Source of the DNA: an uncultured Collinsella sp.
GTDB taxonomy: Bacteria > Actinomycetota > Coriobacteriia > Coriobacteriales > Coriobacteriaceae
Direction of reading: 5' to 3'
Assembly: GCA_949294785.1 (NCBI GenBank)
Contig: CASFIQ010000095.1
Coordinates: forward strand, 1 to 34,683
Length of the DNA stretch: 34,683 nt
The notes under the pieces were generated by a model, which saw nothing but the letters and a program-made list of their open reading frames with translations, searched no databases and had not been told where the DNA came from. Both the position numbers and the translations under genes were made by a program. This document shows, piece by piece, positions 9,275 to 17,684 of this stretch. The first letter of the stretch is position 1, and every line of letters starts with the position of its first letter.

Positions 9275-10519
9275 TCACCAGCCCAGCAGCTGAAGCGCGA
9301 ACATGACGACCGTGAGCACGGTGATGAGGACGATCGTCGCCCAGGTGAGGGCGTTCCAAACCCTGCCGTTCGCCCAATTGCCCATGATCAGGCGATCGCT
9401 CGCGATGAACACAAGGAAGACCAGGAGCACCGGCAGCAGGATACCGTTGATCACTTGGGCGGACATCATGATGTCGAAGAGGTTGACCCCGGGCAAGATC
9501 ACGATCAGCGCCGAGACCACGATGATGCCCGTGATGATGCCGCGGTAGGCGGGCGCCTCGTCCCAGCTGCGGTCCGCGCCGCGCTCCCAGCCAAAGGCCT
9601 CGCAGATGGCGCTCGAGGTCACACCGGGCAGCACGCAGGCGGCAAGGAAGCTCGCCGCGACGAGGCCCGCGCCGAACAGCACCGTCGACCACTCGCCCAC
9701 GATCGGCTCGAGCGCGCGGGCGGCGTCCGCCGCGTCCGCGACCTCGATCCCGGCCGGCGCGAGCACCGACCCAGTGGTCACGATGATGAACCACGCGATG
9801 GCGCAGGCGAGCACGGACCCCGAGACGGAATCGATGCGCTGCAAGATGATGCCGGCCTCGTCGACGTTCTTGTCGACCACGTTGTTCTGCGCGAGGAAGA
9901 TCATCCACGGGGCGATGGTGGTACCGATGGTGGCGACCAGCAGCGACACGTATCCGGGCTCCGCCACGAGCTGCGGAGCGACCGTCGCCGCCGCGACCCG
10001 GCCCCAATCGGGCCCCACCATGAACGCCGCGACGACATAGGTGAGAAACACGCAGCTCACCAGCAGCAAAATCCGCTCGATGCGCTTGAAGCTCCCGCTC
10101 ATGGTGATCAGCCAGATGACGAGCCCCATCAGCGGCACCGATATCGTCGCGGGAACGCCGAAGAGCGCCAGGCCGCTTGCCAGGCCCGCGAACTCCGAGA
10201 TGGTGACCGCGGTGTTCGCGACGAGCAGCGCCCCCATGGCGAGCGCGCTGTTGCGCACACCGAACTTCTCGCGGATGAGCGAGGCGAAACCCTTGCCCGT
10301 AACGCAACCGGCGCGTGCCGCGGTCTCCTGCACCACGATCAGCAGCAGCGCCATGACCGGCAAGATCCACAGCGTGCGGTAACCGTAGGTGGCACCGGCG
10401 CTCGAATAGGTTGCGATTCCGCCCGCATCGTTGCCGGCAAGCGCCGCGAGAAGCCCCGGGCCCATGGCACCCAGCACGGCCACAAGCGTCAGGCGCTCGC
10501 CTGCATCCCGTCTCATCAC
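9275..10519 (-). CDS. Nramp-related Mg2+ transporter (NRMT-like)
   Basis: The 414-residue protein is an SLC11/Nramp-fold transporter with 11 or so helices. The key ion-site motifs differ from Mn/Fe Nramps. The helix-1 motif DPGN is DAGG (31-34), keeping the aspartate but losing the asparagine. The helix-6 MPH motif is IAPW (202-205), so the methionine that selects soft metals is alanine (A203). These replacements are what I recall of the NRMT branch, shown to carry Mg2+ in Clostridium acetobutylicum and studied structurally in Eggerthella lenta. Mg2+ uptake is therefore the likeliest function. The GTG at 10519 has AGGG at 7 bases; ATG at 10516 is equally possible. It follows the MgtE-like gene by 25 bases, in one operon. 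Confidence 0.82.
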   Translation of the reverse strand: MMRRDAGERLTLVAVLGAMGPGLLAALAGNDAGGIATYSSAGATYGYRTLWILPVMALLLIVVQETAARAGCVTGKGFASLIREKFGVRNSALAMGALLVANTAVTISEFAGLASGLALFGVPATISVPLMGLVIWLITMSGSFKRIERILLLVSCVFLTYVVAAFMVGPDWGRVAAATVAPQLVAEPGYVSLLVATIGTTIAPWMIFLAQNNVVDKNVDEAGIILQRIDSVSGSVLACAIAWFIIVTTGSVLAPAGIEVADAADAARALEPIVGEWSTVLFGAGLVAASFLAACVLPGVTSSAICEAFGWERGADRSWDEAPAYRGIITGIIVVSALIVILPGVNLFDIMMSAQVINGILLPVLLVFLVFIASDRLIMGNWANGRVWNALTWATIVLITVLTVVMFALQLLGW

Positions 10520-10544
10520 CTGCTCACCCTACCCGGTCCCGCAT

Positions 10545-12425
10545 CTATGCCAGCATGCTGAAGACGGCGAGCGTCGCAATGATAGAAAACGCCGCGCAGG
10601 CGACCACGACGGCACCGACGCTGAGCGCGGCACCCGAGGTGTTGAGGTCGTGCTCGTCGCGCCAGATCAAGACCTTCAGGAAGCCGACCGAGGATGCGCA
10701 GCACACGAAGACCACCGCGGCAGCGGCCATGAACGAGCACGAGAGCGCGGCGGCGGCCAGCGCCTCCGCCGAGAGGTCGGCACCACCGATCTGGGCGAGC
10801 ACCTCGTCGGGGAACGCCGCCCCCAAAACCAGCTGCGAGCACAGGTAGATGACGATGGCAAGGATCGCGCCCACCCCGGTGGTCTCCAAGAAGAAACCCA
10901 GGTAGGGCTTGGCATCATCCTCATGTTCGTCGTACTCCAGGTAGAAGTTGCGCGCAAACGACACGGTGCGCGCCGCGGCGATCAGCACCACGGGCATGGC
11001 GCACATGGGATAGACGAAATACCCCTCGAAACCGCCCAGCCAGCCCAAGGCCGCCGCGATGATCCCCGATGCGATCGCCCAGATGAGCAACCAGTACTGG
11101 CGGCGGGCGAACCAGCCGAACACGTGCATCGACTCGCCGGCACCGCCCTCGCCCGCGGAGACGCCGGCGATCTGGAGGTCCTCCTCGTGCTCCTCGGCGA
11201 TGACGTCGAGGGCGTCGTCGACGGTGACGATGCCGAGCACATGGCGCGCCTCGTCGCACACCGGGATGGCGACCAGGTTGTACTTGGTCATCTCCTCCGC
11301 CACGTCCTCCTGATCGAGGTCCGGCGCGACCCACACCACGTCGCGATACGCCAGATCGGAAAGGCGCGCGTCGTGATCGGCCACGATCAGCGTGCGCAGG
11401 CTGAGCACACCCGTAAGCGCCCCCGCGGGGTCGAGCGTGTAGACGTAGTAGACGCTCTCGAAGTCCTCGTCGAGCCTGCGAATCGCCTCGATCGCGTCGG
11501 CGACGGTCGCCGTCGCGGGCAGCGCCACGAACTCCGAGGTCATGATGCGGCCGGCGGTATCCTCCTCATACCCCAGCAGGGTACGGATCGCGCGCTCCTC
11601 CTGCACGCCCATAAGGCGCAGCAGCTTCTCCGCCTTCTCGTAATCGAGCTCCTCGATGAGCGCCGCGGCGTCATCGGGGTCCATGAGGGCGAGCATGCTC
11701 GATGCCTCGCGGTCGCTCATGCCCTCGAGGACCTCGGCCGCGAGCTCGTCGTCGTCGAACTCGCCGATCGCCTCGGCCGCCTGGGCGGTGTCGAGTTGCG
11801 CGAAGACCTGGCCGCGCAGGCGCGGATCGAGCTGCTCGATGATGTCGGCGATGTCGGCGGGATGCAGTTCGTCGAGCGTCTTATGCGAGACCGAGAGCTT
11901 GATGTTTTGCGTCGAGCGCTCCAGCAGGTCCATATAGGACCAGGCGATGATCTCCTCCTTGAGCGGGCGCCCCAGCGTCTTGGCTACGCGCACCGCCACG
12001 CGCTCGAGCGCGGGATGGAGCGAACGCAGAAGGCCGCGCGCGCCGACCTCGGCGCCCAGAAGGCGCAGCTGGCCGTCACCGGCCGAGGAGAGCTTGATAT
12101 CGTTCACGCGGACGACCTTCATGCCCTGGGTATCCACGATCTGCTTGTTCAAGATGTCGCGAGCGAGCAGCACCTCGTCGGGCTGCAGGTAGGAGAAGCG
12201 CACGTCCTTGTCGGCGGTCTTCAGGTGCACGCCGTCGTCGTCGACGCGCTCCACGTACTTGCGCCAGCTGATCATGAAGGGCGTCTTGCCCGGGCCCTGG
12301 AACGCGAGCGAGGTCACATGGGGGAAGACCTCGCCCGTGGCGATGCCGAGGTCGTTCACGACGCCGAGCCGCGTGCCCTGGGAATCGAGCACGGGAAGCT
12401 TGAGCATCTCGGATAGGTAGTTCAT
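10545..12425 (-). CDS. PRC/MgtE-N/CBS membrane protein, MgtE-like without recognisable pore motifs
   Basis: The 626-residue protein reads, in order: two PRC-barrel-like segments (about 1-80 and 85-165), an MgtE_N helical domain (184-285, LHPADIADIIEQLDP), a CBS pair (296-415) and about five C-terminal helices (443-465, 468-490, 508-530, 555-578, 598-622). The order and helix count match the Mg2+ channel MgtE. However, the helix-2/3 GGNxGxQ signature is absent, and the last helix has no aspartate where MgtE has its selectivity residue. It may therefore sense Mg2+ or nucleotides rather than conduct ions, and may gate its operon partner, the Nramp-related transporter; this is inference. The ATG at 12425 has AAGGAG at 4 bases. 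N-terminal PRC fusions to MgtE_N/CBS occur in actinobacteria. Confidence 0.8.
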   Translation of the reverse strand: MNYLSEMLKLPVLDSQGTRLGVVNDLGIATGEVFPHVTSLAFQGPGKTPFMISWRKYVERVDDDGVHLKTADKDVRFSYLQPDEVLLARDILNKQIVDTQGMKVVRVNDIKLSSAGDGQLRLLGAEVGARGLLRSLHPALERVAVRVAKTLGRPLKEEIIAWSYMDLLERSTQNIKLSVSHKTLDELHPADIADIIEQLDPRLRGQVFAQLDTAQAAEAIGEFDDDELAAEVLEGMSDREASSMLALMDPDDAAALIEELDYEKAEKLLRLMGVQEERAIRTLLGYEEDTAGRIMTSEFVALPATATVADAIEAIRRLDEDFESVYYVYTLDPAGALTGVLSLRTLIVADHDARLSDLAYRDVVWVAPDLDQEDVAEEMTKYNLVAIPVCDEARHVLGIVTVDDALDVIAEEHEEDLQIAGVSAGEGGAGESMHVFGWFARRQYWLLIWAIASGIIAAALGWLGGFEGYFVYPMCAMPVVLIAAARTVSFARNFYLEYDEHEDDAKPYLGFFLETTGVGAILAIVIYLCSQLVLGAAFPDEVLAQIGGADLSAEALAAAALSCSFMAAAAVVFVCCASSVGFLKVLIWRDEHDLNTSGAALSVGAVVVACAAFSIIATLAVFSMLA

Positions 12426-14182: not shown

Positions 14183-14950
14183 TCAGCGCTTCTTCTTGAC
14201 CTGCTTTCCGCCCGGTGCGCCCGCGGCCTTCTTGAATTCGTCCTTGAACGCGCCGAACATGCCGCGCGTGCGCCCCAGCTGCCTGCCGACGGCGCGCGCG
14301 CCCTTCGTGACCGCGACGGAACCCTTCTCGTCGAGCACCTGGGCGCCCTGCTTGACCTTCTCGCCCACCACGGCGGTCGCCTCGCCGGCCTTCGCGGCGA
14401 CGCCGCCGGTCACCTCGAGCGCGGTGGCAGCGTCATCGACCACCATGCAGCCGGAGCGGTAGCCCGCGACCATGCGCGCGGGCACGTGGACGTCGCCCAG
14501 AAGCGCGCTCGCGGTTGCCCCGCGGGTCACCGCGAAATACTCGACGGCCCGCGTCTTGGGCGAGAAGCACGCGTCAGCGCAATATCCCAGGGGCTCGCCC
14601 GAGGCGCTCACCACGTCCATGCCGGTCCAGATGACGCAGGCGTCCAAATCGATTCCGAGCCGCTTGGCGGCTGGCTGGTCGAACGAATCGCGAGCATCGG
14701 TCACGGCGAGCGCGCCCTCGTAGATGTGGATGCGGTCGAACGCCGCGAAGCGGTCGGGGCGCTTCACCATGCCGGCGATCTCCGGCGGGGTAATCATGAA
14801 GCCCACCAGCTGGCTGCCGTCCTTGGTGAAGACGGGAAAATGCACGCGACCGAGCTTGCGCGGGTCGCGTGGCGTTCCATCCTTGTTGGTGCGCTTGCCC
14901 TCCGCCGGGGCGAGGTAGATCTTCTGCCCCTGGAAATCGGATGCGAGCAT
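14183..14950 (-). CDS. PRC-barrel domain protein
   Basis: The 255-residue protein has a PRC-barrel-like stretch at about 105-180 (GMDVVSASGEPLGYCADACFS, then VHVPARMVAG). An N-terminal half (1-100) of similar beta character may be a second, degenerate copy. The C-terminal 70 residues are alanine/lysine-rich, amphipathic and strongly basic, ending in VKKKR, as if to contact membrane, wall polymer or nucleic acid. No signal peptide or membrane helix is visible, so it is probably cytoplasmic. Its ATG overlaps the stop of the YtxH gene by one base (TAATG), and the NodB-like gene starts 32 bases after its stop, so the three are co-transcribed and partly coupled. The molecular function is unknown. 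Confidence 0.75.
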   Translation of the reverse strand: MLASDFQGQKIYLAPAEGKRTNKDGTPRDPRKLGRVHFPVFTKDGSQLVGFMITPPEIAGMVKRPDRFAAFDRIHIYEGALAVTDARDSFDQPAAKRLGIDLDACVIWTGMDVVSASGEPLGYCADACFSPKTRAVEYFAVTRGATASALLGDVHVPARMVAGYRSGCMVVDDAATALEVTGGVAAKAGEATAVVGEKVKQGAQVLDEKGSVAVTKGARAVGRQLGRTRGMFGAFKDEFKKAAGAPGGKQVKKKR

Positions 14951-15333
14951 TACGCCTCGGCGCCGGCTTCCGCAGCTGCCTCGGCGACGGCGTCGGAAAC
15001 CTCGACATCCATGGCGGGGGTGACGGTGCCGGAGTTCACGGCCTGGTTCAGCGTCTCGCGAAGCTGGTCCATGCGCTCGCGGGCGAGATCGACCTTGGCG
15101 CGGAGCTCATCGGTCTTGGCATCGACCATGGGGCCGAAGTCGTTCATCGCGGCACGGGCCTGCTCGGTGCCCTGCTCGTAAAGATCGCGCGCGCTATCCC
15201 ACGCATCGTTGGCCATATCGGCGGCCATGGCGCGGGTCTCGGCGCCGGAGCGCGGGGCGCAAAGGATGCCGATGATGGCACCGGCGGCGGCACCGACGGT
15301 CGCGCCGACCACGAAACTGAAGGCCTTGCCCAT
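14950..15333 (-). CDS. YtxH domain protein
   Basis: The 127-residue protein has a glycine/alanine-rich hydrophobic N-terminus (residues 5-25, VVGATVGAAAGAIIGILCAP) followed by a long charged amphipathic helix (30-100) and a short acidic alanine-rich tail. This is the YtxH (gas-vesicle/stress-type) layout: a membrane-attached helix with a cytoplasmic coiled coil. Proteins of this type are common in Gram-positive stress operons, but their biochemical role is not established. The ATG at 15333 has GGAGGGGA at 6 bases. It is the first gene of the three-gene operon read from the promoter at 15376-15405. Confidence 0.8.
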   Translation of the reverse strand: MGKAFSFVVGATVGAAAGAIIGILCAPRSGAETRAMAADMANDAWDSARDLYEQGTEQARAAMNDFGPMVDAKTDELRAKVDLARERMDQLRETLNQAVNSGTVTPAMDVEVSDAVAEAAAEAGAEA

Positions 15334-15375
15334 GTAAATCCCCTCCGTAAGGAATAGGTTTTAAAGTGGTTTCAC

Positions 15376-15405
15376 ATTATAGCGTACCCGTGCGAGCGCG
15401 GTCAG
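15376..15405 (-). promoter_or_regulatory. Promoter of the ytxH/PRC/NodB-like operon
   Basis: On the minus strand a perfect TATAAT (plus-strand 15376-15381) follows CTGACC (15400-15405) at 18 bases. It gives a leader of about 35 bases. The -35 overlaps the stop codon of the upstream gene. It is the best -10 of the minus-strand genes here. Confidence 0.65.
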
Positions 15406-16091
15406 CCCTCGTATCCGGCAGCGGCGCCGCCGAAGACGGGGTCGGCGGGGGTATCTTCCTCGACGCGCGCCCCCTCCACGTCGATGGGGCCGTCTACGGC
15501 ATCGTCCCCATCGACGTCGGCGGCGGCGTCCTCTTCCGGCCCGCCCGCCGCGTCATCGGCAGCAGCATCGTCGATATCGGCGTCATCGCCGTCCGCGACC
15601 TCGGTGGCATCCTCGCCGCGCAGCGACAGGACCAGCCGGCGCAGGCCCTCGACCGTGCCCTCCACATCGGGCGCCGGCGCATCCGGCTGGACGAACGCCC
15701 ACTGCATCATGAAGACCGCAGATGACAGCGCGCCGATGGTGAGCACGTCGTCCGGGCAGGAGAGCTCGATATCGAACAGGCGCGGGTCCTCGGCGATGCC
15801 GCGGGTGCGGCCGCAGGAGATATCGCCGGCGAGGCCGGTCTCGTTCATGAGCTCGACGGTCAGGTGCTCCAGCAGGTGTGCCAGCTCGGTGTCGCCCATG
15901 CAGTCCTGGAACTCGGACCCCGCGTCGCCCAGGCACACGTGCTTGGCGATGGCGGGCGCGAGGTAGTAGACGCGCGCCGTGGCCTCGATGTCCTCGGCGG
16001 TGCGCAGCGGCATGCCCGGGTTCACCAGCACGCGCGCCGTGAGTTTCTCCTCGCCCACGGTGATCTTCATGATCTTGAACAGCTCTGCCAT
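15402..16091 (-). CDS. Stand-alone cyanophycin-synthetase N-terminal-domain-like protein
   Basis: The 229-residue protein resembles only the N-terminal domain of cyanophycin synthetase (CphA). It has the histidine/glutamate helix AHLLEHLTVEL (71-81), the following CGRTRGI (93-99) and a long helix FMMQWAF matching the CphA N-domain end. CphA's ATP-grasp and Mur-ligase domains are absent here and next door. Residues 160-215 are a very acidic, low-complexity tail. HLLEH (72-76) has the inverted zincin pattern HxxEH, which raises the possibility of a metal site. As I recall, the CphA N-domain can have a hydrolytic primer-making activity, but the role of the orphan form is unknown. The ATG at 16091 has GAGG two bases upstream and AAAGGA further up; the longer open frame upstream crosses the promoter. 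Confidence 0.65.
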   Translation of the reverse strand: MAELFKIMKITVGEEKLTARVLVNPGMPLRTAEDIEATARVYYLAPAIAKHVCLGDAGSEFQDCMGDTELAHLLEHLTVELMNETGLAGDISCGRTRGIAEDPRLFDIELSCPDDVLTIGALSSAVFMMQWAFVQPDAPAPDVEGTVEGLRRLVLSLRGEDATEVADGDDADIDDAAADDAAGGPEEDAAADVDGDDAVDGPIDVEGARVEEDTPADPVFGGAAAGYEG

Positions 16092-16148
16092 AACCTCACG
16101 CGTCCTTTCACGCGCGCCCGAACTCGGGCGTCCCGGGAAACTCCCCTT

Positions 16149-16177
16149 ATGGTAGCGGACGGGCGCGCCCCGCACAA
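16149..16177 (-). promoter_or_regulatory. Promoter of the CphA-N-like gene
   Basis: TTGTGC (plus-strand 16172-16177) and TACCAT (16149-16154) are separated by exactly 17 bases on the minus strand. The predicted start near 16142 gives a 50-base leader. Confidence 0.5.
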
Positions 16178-16226
16178 AGCGAGACGCGCCGGGTGCCGCG
16201 TGGCTCAACCGTTATGCGAGCTGCGC

Positions 16227-17591
16227 TCAGGCGCGCTCGTCCGCCTCGGGATCGCGCGCCCCTTTGCCGGCGGGGGCCTCGTCGGCGGCGTGCTCGGGCT
16301 CCTCCTCCGGAGCGATCACGCGGATGAGCGAGATGCGCTGCCCGCGCATGGATTGAATCTTGAACTTGTACTGCTCGACCTCGAAGATCTCGCCGATGCT
16401 CGGCACGGAGTCGCAGAAGTCCATGATCCAGCCGGCGATGGTCTCGTAGTCGTCGCTCTCCTCGATCGGCCATCCCAGCTCGACGGCGTCGTCGCAGCTG
16501 AAGCGCCCGTCGACCAGCCACTCGCGGCGCGAGAGGCGAGTGAGGTACTTGTTGTCGGGATCGAACTCGTCCTCGATCTCGCCCACGACCTCCTCGACGA
16601 TGTCCTCGATGGTGATGAGGCCGGCGGTGCCGCCGTACTCGTCCACCACCACGACCATCTGCTCGTGCGCGGTCTGCATCTCGGAGAGCAGGGGCAGGAT
16701 GTCCTTGGTGTCGGGCACGAAGGTCGCATCGCGCAGGCTGCTCGCCACGGGGCCGTCGGCCTTGTTGGAGAGCGCGAGCTCGATCAGGTCCTTGATGTGC
16801 GCGATGCCCACCACGTTGTCGGTGTCCTCGTGGTAGACGGGGATGCGCGAGAACCCGGTCTTGCGCATGAGGTCGAGCACCTCCGCGACGGTATCGGTGT
16901 CCTCGGCCATCTCGACGTCCACGCGCGGCACCATGACCTCGCGCGCCACGGCGTCGCCCAGGTCGAAGATCTCGTGGATCATGCGCTTCTCCTCGTCGCG
17001 CATGCCGTCCTGCTCGGAGACCATGTACTTGATCTCCTCCTCGCTCACGTTCTGGCGGTCGTCGGCGCTCTTGATGCCCAGAAGGGCGCTGAGGCCGTTG
17101 GCGGACGCCTGCGTGAGCCACACGAGCGGGCGGGCGACCTTGCGGAAGGTCGAGATGGTGCCGGCAACGGACTTCGCCATGCCCTCGGCGTCGGAGAGGC
17201 CGATGCGCTTGGGCACGAGCTCGCCGATCACGATCGAGAGGTAGGAGACGATCAGGGTGATGATGATGGGCGCGGCGATGGGCGCGGCGGCGGTGAGCGG
17301 CGCGACGCCGAAGGAACTCATCCACTGGGCCAGCGGGTCGGAGAGCGTGTTGGACGAGACGGTCGCCGAGAAGAAGCCCACGAGCGTGATGGCCACCTGG
17401 ATGGTCGCCAGGAAGTTGGTGGAGTCGTTCGCGAGGTCGAGGGCGAGGACGGCGCGGTGGTCGCCCTCCTCGGCGTCGTGCTCGAGGGTCGCGCGCTTGG
17501 CGGTGGTGAGGGCCATCTCCGACATGGAGAAGAAGCCGTTCAGCAGGGTCAGCAAGAACGTTGCGACGATGGAAAAGACGATTATGCCCAT
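16227..17591 (-). CDS. CNNM/CorC-type transporter with CBS pair (hemolysin C family)
   Basis: The 454-residue membrane protein begins with a DUF21/CNNM domain of about four helices (1-200; FFSMSEMALTTA and SIVIGELVPKRI are diagnostic). A CBS pair follows (about 215-335, MVPRVDVEMAEDTDT and VVVDEYGGTAGLITIEDIVEEVVGEIEDE), then a CorC_HlyC domain (about 350-435) and an acidic tail. Relatives (CorB, CNNM) export or exchange Mg2+, with nucleotide binding at the CBS domains; the hemolysin name is historical. The start at 17591 matches the family N-terminus, although the GGGAGG is 15 bases away. The gene follows the hemolysin III gene by 93 bases and is likely co-transcribed. Confidence 0.88.
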   Translation of the reverse strand: MGIIVFSIVATFLLTLLNGFFSMSEMALTTAKRATLEHDAEEGDHRAVLALDLANDSTNFLATIQVAITLVGFFSATVSSNTLSDPLAQWMSSFGVAPLTAAAPIAAPIIITLIVSYLSIVIGELVPKRIGLSDAEGMAKSVAGTISTFRKVARPLVWLTQASANGLSALLGIKSADDRQNVSEEEIKYMVSEQDGMRDEEKRMIHEIFDLGDAVAREVMVPRVDVEMAEDTDTVAEVLDLMRKTGFSRIPVYHEDTDNVVGIAHIKDLIELALSNKADGPVASSLRDATFVPDTKDILPLLSEMQTAHEQMVVVVDEYGGTAGLITIEDIVEEVVGEIEDEFDPDNKYLTRLSRREWLVDGRFSCDDAVELGWPIEESDDYETIAGWIMDFCDSVPSIGEIFEVEQYKFKIQSMRGQRISLIRVIAPEEEPEHAADEAPAGKGARDPEADERA

Positions 17592-17684
17592 AAGATGTAG
17601 ATCAAACCTCCCAGACGGGGCGTGCAGACAAACAGGATGGGGCCCGGGCGCGAGCGATGTTGCGTCGCCGGGCGGCACGGCGTA

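Follow-up and report, generated by a model that had tools for sequence, protein, structure and literature searches.

The window, that is, the whole stretch of 34,683 nucleotides that was analyzed (contig CASFIQ010000095.1 of an uncultured Collinsella sp., class Coriobacteriia, family Coriobacteriaceae), carries two adjacent genes on the minus strand that are separated by 25 bp, a partner gene with domains of the MgtE type (gene 1) and, downstream of it, a gene for a transporter of the NRMT branch of SLC11 (gene 2). The features of this pair and of two genes located farther upstream are as follows.

9275..10519, minus strand: gene 2, NRMT-branch SLC11 transporter, 414 aa, with its start at GTG 10519 or ATG 10516
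9911..9922, minus strand: TTIA, residues 200–203, the NRMT helix-6 signature TxxA
10418..10429, minus strand: DAGG, residues 31–34, the NRMT helix-1 ion-site signature DxxG
10545..12425, minus strand: gene 1, PRC-MgtE_N-CBS-5TM protein, 626 aa, start ATG 12425, a pore-less MgtE relative and proposed Mg2+ sensor
10548..11126, minus strand: degenerate MgtE-type membrane domain of five helices, residues 434–626 (hhalign, AlphaFold2, Foldseek)
10551..10634, minus strand: last helix, residues 598–625, without an acidic residue, at the position of the MgtE pore Asp (TtMgtE D432)
10956..10982, minus strand: IAAARTVSF, residues ~482–490, at the position of MgtE GGNxGxQ
11178..11549, minus strand: CBS pair, residues ~293–416, with equivalents of TtMgtE Y170, R187, E216, D247, D250, and E255 (Pfam PF00571 and site alignment)
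11559..11867, minus strand: MgtE_N, residues 187–289, with the equivalent of TtMgtE D91, a conserved Mg2+-site residue (Pfam PF03448, E = 3e-25, and site alignment)
12219..12422, minus strand: PRC-barrel domain, residues 2–69 (Pfam PF05239, E = 8e-8, in two stretches)
14183..14950, minus strand: PRC-barrel-like protein, upstream (weak Pfam PRC match, 18.0 bits, below the cut-off)
16227..17678, minus strand: CNNM/CorC-type Mg2+ transporter (CNNM, CBS pair, and CorC_HlyC), upstream (Pfam PF01595, E = 3e-41)

Gene 2 matches the Pfam Nramp model (E = 1e-84), and its best relative of solved structure is EleNRMT, the Mg2+ transporter of Eggerthella lenta (7qia, E = 6e-140), which scores 470 bits compared with 99.8 bits for the next chain in the PDB and thereby identifies gene 2 as NRMT-type and not MntH. 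A preliminary description of the locus had noted that DAGG replaces DPGN and that Ala occupies the helix-6 Met position; we find both, the former at residues 31–34 and the latter as Ala203 within TTIAPW (residues 200–205). Helix 1 has DxxG and helix 6 has TxxA, which together make up the NRMT signature, published as DxxG-TxxA/T. The first His of helix 6 is replaced by Trp and the Glu of helix 3 is retained, both as in EleNRMT. The 7qia match and the signature together bear out the earlier assignment of this Nramp-related gene to the NRMT-type importers. EleNRMT transports Mg2+ and Mn2+ without protons and is active alone in proteoliposomes (PMC8806188). Relative to EleNRMT, gene 2 is an ordinary relative; the genus of EleNRMT has a single-helix sensor beside NRMT (L261, L266).

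For gene 1, Pfam and AlphaFold2 agree with the preliminary description of an upstream gene with PRC, MgtE_N, a CBS pair, and five helices. When the membrane domain is modeled alone with AlphaFold2, the C-terminal part folds into five membrane helices with a pLDDT of 95.2, and the full-length model (pLDDT 86, pTM 0.52) has MgtE entries as its best PDB matches. The protein nevertheless scores below the curated cut-off of TIGR00400, the NCBI MgtE equivalog model (214 vs. 233 bits), and PF01769, the Pfam model of the MgtE pore, does not match it. Like the MgtE channel TtMgtE, gene 1 has MgtE_N, a CBS pair, plug-region acids, and a five-helix domain in the same register, but it lacks GGNxGxQ as well as the pore Asp and adds a PRC domain.

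To what extent the five helices descend from MgtE was addressed by hhalign, in which 69 partner membrane domains aligned with those of true MgtE proteins at E = 7e-11 along ~170 columns. The families other than that of the window gave 1e-12 on their own. Because the window family alone gave a nonsignificant E value of 0.09, the homology to the MgtE membrane domain that these alignments support firmly for the group is transitive for the window protein. Partner genes from other families of the class have weak matches to PF01769 that reach E = 1e-7 and in some cases lie above the curated cut-off, and a Foldseek search with the model of the gene 1 membrane domain placed MgtE entries at ranks 1–5 (4u9l, 4u9n, and 2zy9 at the top) with E values of 0.16–0.45, which are not significant and only consistent with such a relationship. 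GGNxGxQ is found in none of the 69 relatives from the class that bear a membrane domain and is likewise absent from the window protein; another 15 PRC-MgtE proteins from the phylum lack it as well, and one of them (L227), which still scores 61 bits over the entire Pfam MgtE profile, resembles an intermediate. The position of the last-helix Asp is hydrophobic in the partners. An MgtE-like partner without GGNxGxQ and without this Asp, as previously described, is thus confirmed by the sequence and by the alignment of 69 relatives, and in the profile alignment the helices have none of the usual pore residues. These comparisons support the view that gene 1 encodes a former MgtE channel whose membrane domain has diverged and whose pore has been lost.

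The cytosolic part has a different fate. Closure of MgtE is prevented by a mutation in any of several of its cytosolic Mg2+ sites, including D91/D247 (Mg4), D226/D250 (Mg5), and D95 (Mg6), and the D91/D247 mutant stays open at 20 mM Mg2+ (PMC5882242), while the ATP contacts of MgtE include Y170, R187, D188, N203, and F227 (PMC5529423). In a site alignment with TtMgtE, equivalents of D91, D247, E216, E255, E258, D259, and Y170 are present in all five-helix groups aligned, that of R187 in most of them, and those of E59 and D250 mostly; in the window protein, the equivalents of D95, D226, and F227 are changed to A, N, and L, respectively. Judged from this alignment, gene 1 retains most of the Mg2+-sensor acids and two ATP-site residues (Y170 and R187), in line with the MgtE-derived sensor part that had been proposed. 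The Mg4 residues D91 and D247 occur in every sensor form checked, including soluble forms and those linked or fused to MgtA, whereas only sensors with a five-helix domain have both residues of the plug-region pair E258/D259.

Each of the two genes was found in 62 of the 67 genomes surveyed in the family; because they are adjacent and on the same strand in 61 of the 61 genomes that hold both, chance pairing is excluded. Four genomes of one genus (g2) have neither gene. Of the 199 genomes surveyed across the class, 182 encode MgtE_N and 164 encode Nramp; wherever loci were retrieved from genomes holding both, the two genes were neighbors, with the gene order reversed in L077. Among 80 loci sampled from many phyla, NRMT lies beside the sensor in 67, a fusion to MgtA accounts for one, and the remaining 12 show neither arrangement, some of these 12 ending at a contig edge. 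Both co-occurrence and fusion of the two families had been considered in the preliminary description; the former stands, and no fusion of NRMT to the sensor was seen. Long Nramp frames that could have been such fusions were, in those inspected, overlapping open frames. The NRMT frame is broken in G052 (L073) and the partner frame in G108 (L165), either of which may be a draft-assembly error.

Shin et al. 2014 reported that most NrmT genes have an MgtE-N-like neighbor, for which they suggested a role in cytosolic feedback control or as a chaperone (PMC4072509); both the pairing of NRMT with a sensor and the feedback idea are thus already known. According to the same text, coexpressing the Acidobacterium capsulatum partner with NrmT did not improve growth rescue, and NrmT of Clostridium acetobutylicum is functional without its partner (PMC4072509). 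This rescue assay does not test a brake because improvement was sought under starvation, where a feedback brake is silent. The NrmT-associated gene of C. acetobutylicum and A. capsulatum resembles gene 1 in adjoining NRMT and in being homologous to the MgtE cytosolic domain, but it is described there as the cytosolic domain only, whereas in the window form a PRC barrel and a pore-dead five-helix domain are present as well. The window also has no M-box riboswitch, a scan of it at the Rfam gathering thresholds finding SRP RNA only; we treat the M-box as accessory to NRMT and not as defining it. That CBS pairs act as "plug and play" control domains is an accepted idea (PMC10710835). A search of open-licence PMC text found neither a description of a pore-dead MgtE partner nor work on the role of the partner after Shin et al. 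2014. What is new here is the pore-dead five-helix form, the graded series of five-helix, one-helix, and helix-free forms beside NRMT, and the sensor in an MgtA operon and in an MgtA fusion.

In the window family and in most of the class, the membrane part of the partner comprises five helices; in Eggerthellaceae it is a single C-terminal helix, and the partners of Chloroflexi, Nitrospirae, Deltaproteobacteria, and other groups have no membrane helix. Eggerthellaceae partners were considered as soluble proteins, which the C-terminal helix rules out. Because Eggerthellaceae have a single helix and most other phyla none, the five helices appear dispensable, and we take the membrane part for an anchor and not for the gate. 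Among 24 relatives from the family (276 pairs), the median pN/pS is 0.49 for the membrane domain, 0.21 for the cytosolic part, and 0.24 for NRMT; the membrane domain is still under purifying but looser selection, as expected of an anchor. In two loci (L063 and L064, from G044 and G034), the membrane domain of the partner has ~43% identity compared with 82% for the cytosolic part, as if it had been replaced or recombined.

The sensor is also found without an adjoining importer (L062, L167, L168, L183, L226, and L229–L236). In L062 (G058) it lies in the syntenic locus of a genome from which NRMT is absent and which encodes two MgtA proteins above the cut-off elsewhere. L167, L168, and L183 have a five-helix partner in genomes without Nramp; a gene resembling 5-formyltetrahydrofolate cyclo-ligase lies beside the partner in L167 and L183, and a purE-like gene in L167 and L168. 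The Geothermincolia-type loci (L226 and L229–L236) have a pore-dead PRC-MgtE without NRMT beside it, often next to an apparent MerR-like regulator gene, and most of these genomes also have an MgtE-like gene of ordinary length elsewhere.

A second importer is linked to the same module. Using the curated cut-off of TIGR01524 (611 bits) to identify MgtA/MgtB, we found two arrangements, each in two genomes.

L169:4060-7973, minus strand, and L170:1-2070, plus strand: MgtA and, immediately after it, a sensor gene without helices, in Nramp-less genomes, with CNNM and PRC genes nearby
L224:1093-5046, minus strand, and L225:1281-5234, minus strand: a single 1318-aa ORF containing the sensor and a complete MgtA, in two MAGs (Pfam CBS, MgtE_N, PRC, and ATPase domains)

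The genomes of L169 and L170 belong to one genus and have no Nramp match; in both, the gene for the P-type ATPase, of which the full-length copy scores 1151 bits, immediately precedes that of the helix-free sensor. In the fusion ORF, the sensor spans residues 3–411 and MgtA residues 433–1315, the MgtA parts scoring 1077 and 1099 bits and the sensors being 90% identical between L224 and L225. The fusion occurs in only two of the 31 genomes of their class, and the genome of L225 is recorded as Candidatus Geothermincola secundus (L254). Because the gene order is reversed between the two arrangements, MgtA preceding the sensor in the operon and following it in the fusion, the link between MgtA and the sensor probably arose twice. 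All eight Nramp-less sensor carriers checked in the class (G058, G074, G077, G085, G087, G089, G094, and G100) encode MgtA above the cut-off. MgtA/MgtB P-type ATPases thus share with NRMT an association with this sensor module, although their transporter fold is unrelated and the window genome has no MgtA above the cut-off. The preliminary description had proposed a two-protein gated uptake system; the partner is not a subunit dedicated to NRMT, as this sensor module is also encoded next to MgtA, within an MgtA fusion, or by itself. No paper on a gene link between MgtA and MgtE_N-CBS was found in open-licence PMC text, nor is such a link mentioned in the available part of PMC4072509.

We favor, at a probability of roughly 70%, the reading that the cytosolic part of gene 1 senses Mg2+, and probably nucleotide, and restrains the adjacent NRMT, with the helices acting as an anchor and the sensor being portable. 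Gene 2 would import Mg2+, and probably also Mn2+, down the electrochemical gradient without protons. The PRC-MgtE_N-CBS part of gene 1 would sense free cytosolic Mg2+ and probably nucleotide, and its N domain would close on the CBS pair in the same motion that shuts MgtE, so that gene 1 would restrain the neighboring importer at sufficient internal Mg2+ while the five helices would serve only to keep the sensor membrane-bound next to the transporter. Elsewhere the sensor would act through a one-helix tail anchor, as a soluble protein, from a gene beside MgtA, or in fusion with MgtA. Mg2+ sensing, physical contact, and the sign of the effect (inhibition at high Mg2+) are what we infer from the sequences. 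Several observations weigh against this reading, namely the activity of NRMT without a partner, the unimproved rescue on coexpression, the sensors that have no importer beside them, the merely transitive match of the window membrane domain to MgtE, and the altered equivalents of D95, D226, and F227. Stated more broadly, it is somewhat better than an even bet that PRC-MgtE_N-CBS is a transporter-independent Mg2+ governor that feedback-controls importers of unrelated mechanism (NRMT, a uniporter of SLC11, and MgtA, a P-type pump), being a decommissioned MgtE channel in Coriobacteriia and related actinobacteria and tail-anchored or soluble elsewhere, with a link to MgtA formed at least twice, once as an operon with MgtA first and once as a fusion with the sensor first.

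PRC barrels serve as interaction domains, which would also suit a partner that acts as a scaffold, a stability factor, or a Mg2+ chaperone and shields the importer, marks it for turnover, or passes metal along. Metal-chaperone activity was raised as an alternative by Shin et al. (PMC4072509), and turnover of MgtA/MgtB is set by the small proteins MgtR, MgtU, and MgtS (PMC10710835). We regard this explanation as unlikely, though it deserves to be kept in mind: a plain scaffold would not need the MgtE-gating sensor residues that are conserved here, and the fusion places the sensor N-terminal to MgtA without a separate chaperone. A sensor of energy state, in which ATP or AMP on the CBS pair and not Mg2+ gates uptake, would explain why the window protein and most of its relatives have retained the equivalents of the ATP contacts Y170 and R187; it seems very improbable given that the stacking Phe227 is replaced by Leu, that Asn203 and Asp188 vary, and that the acids D91/D247 of the Mg2+ site vary less than the ATP residues do. 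The prospect that the partner still conducts an ion through a rebuilt pore, for instance exporting Mg2+ or carrying another cation so that the genes form an import/export or two-importer pair, strikes us as slight. Outside the window family the GGNxGxQ position holds a fairly conserved acidic pattern, R-x-[AG]-E-[ED], in 24 of 69 sequences, and purifying selection on the membrane domain would fit a working pore, but the pattern is not kept in the window family, the last helix has no acidic residue, and the gene in the same place encodes a single helix in Eggerthellaceae and no helix at all in other phyla.

NRMT has no recognized sensor of its own, so that what shuts off its Mg2+ import is at issue, and the series of dead channel, single-helix anchor, soluble protein, MgtA operon, and MgtA fusion makes this question a testable claim. 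The operon and the fusion are the new and most testable part, and the fusion supplies an experimental handle because sensor and pump share one polypeptide. If the favored reading of gene 1 as a Mg2+-sensing brake is true, a P-type pump and a uniporter would answer to the same Mg2+ sensor, and pore loss would have converted a channel into a regulator.

The window genome, which is 86% complete, encodes two CorA proteins but neither a true MgtE nor an MgtA above the cut-off. A promoter and terminator scan of the locus gave no useful signal at this G+C. The region 14183–17678 and the pair form an extended Mg2+ cluster that is syntenic in relatives, the whole arrangement being present in Collinsella massiliensis (L272). 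A relative of the 14183–14950 protein in L169 has a clear PRC match, and this neighbor is conserved near the sensor in relatives. The CNNM/CorC gene is also near the sensor in L062, L272, L169, and L170; PRC genes and CNNM alike accompany the MgtA-linked sensors of L169 and L170. CNNM/CorC proteins, one of which is thus encoded in the same cluster, resemble the proposed system in the control of a Mg2+ transporter by Mg2+ and ATP through a CBS pair, but their sensor is built in and their membrane domain is unrelated to that of gene 1. The region 14183–17678 also includes a minus-strand ORF with a cyanophycin-synthase-like N domain.
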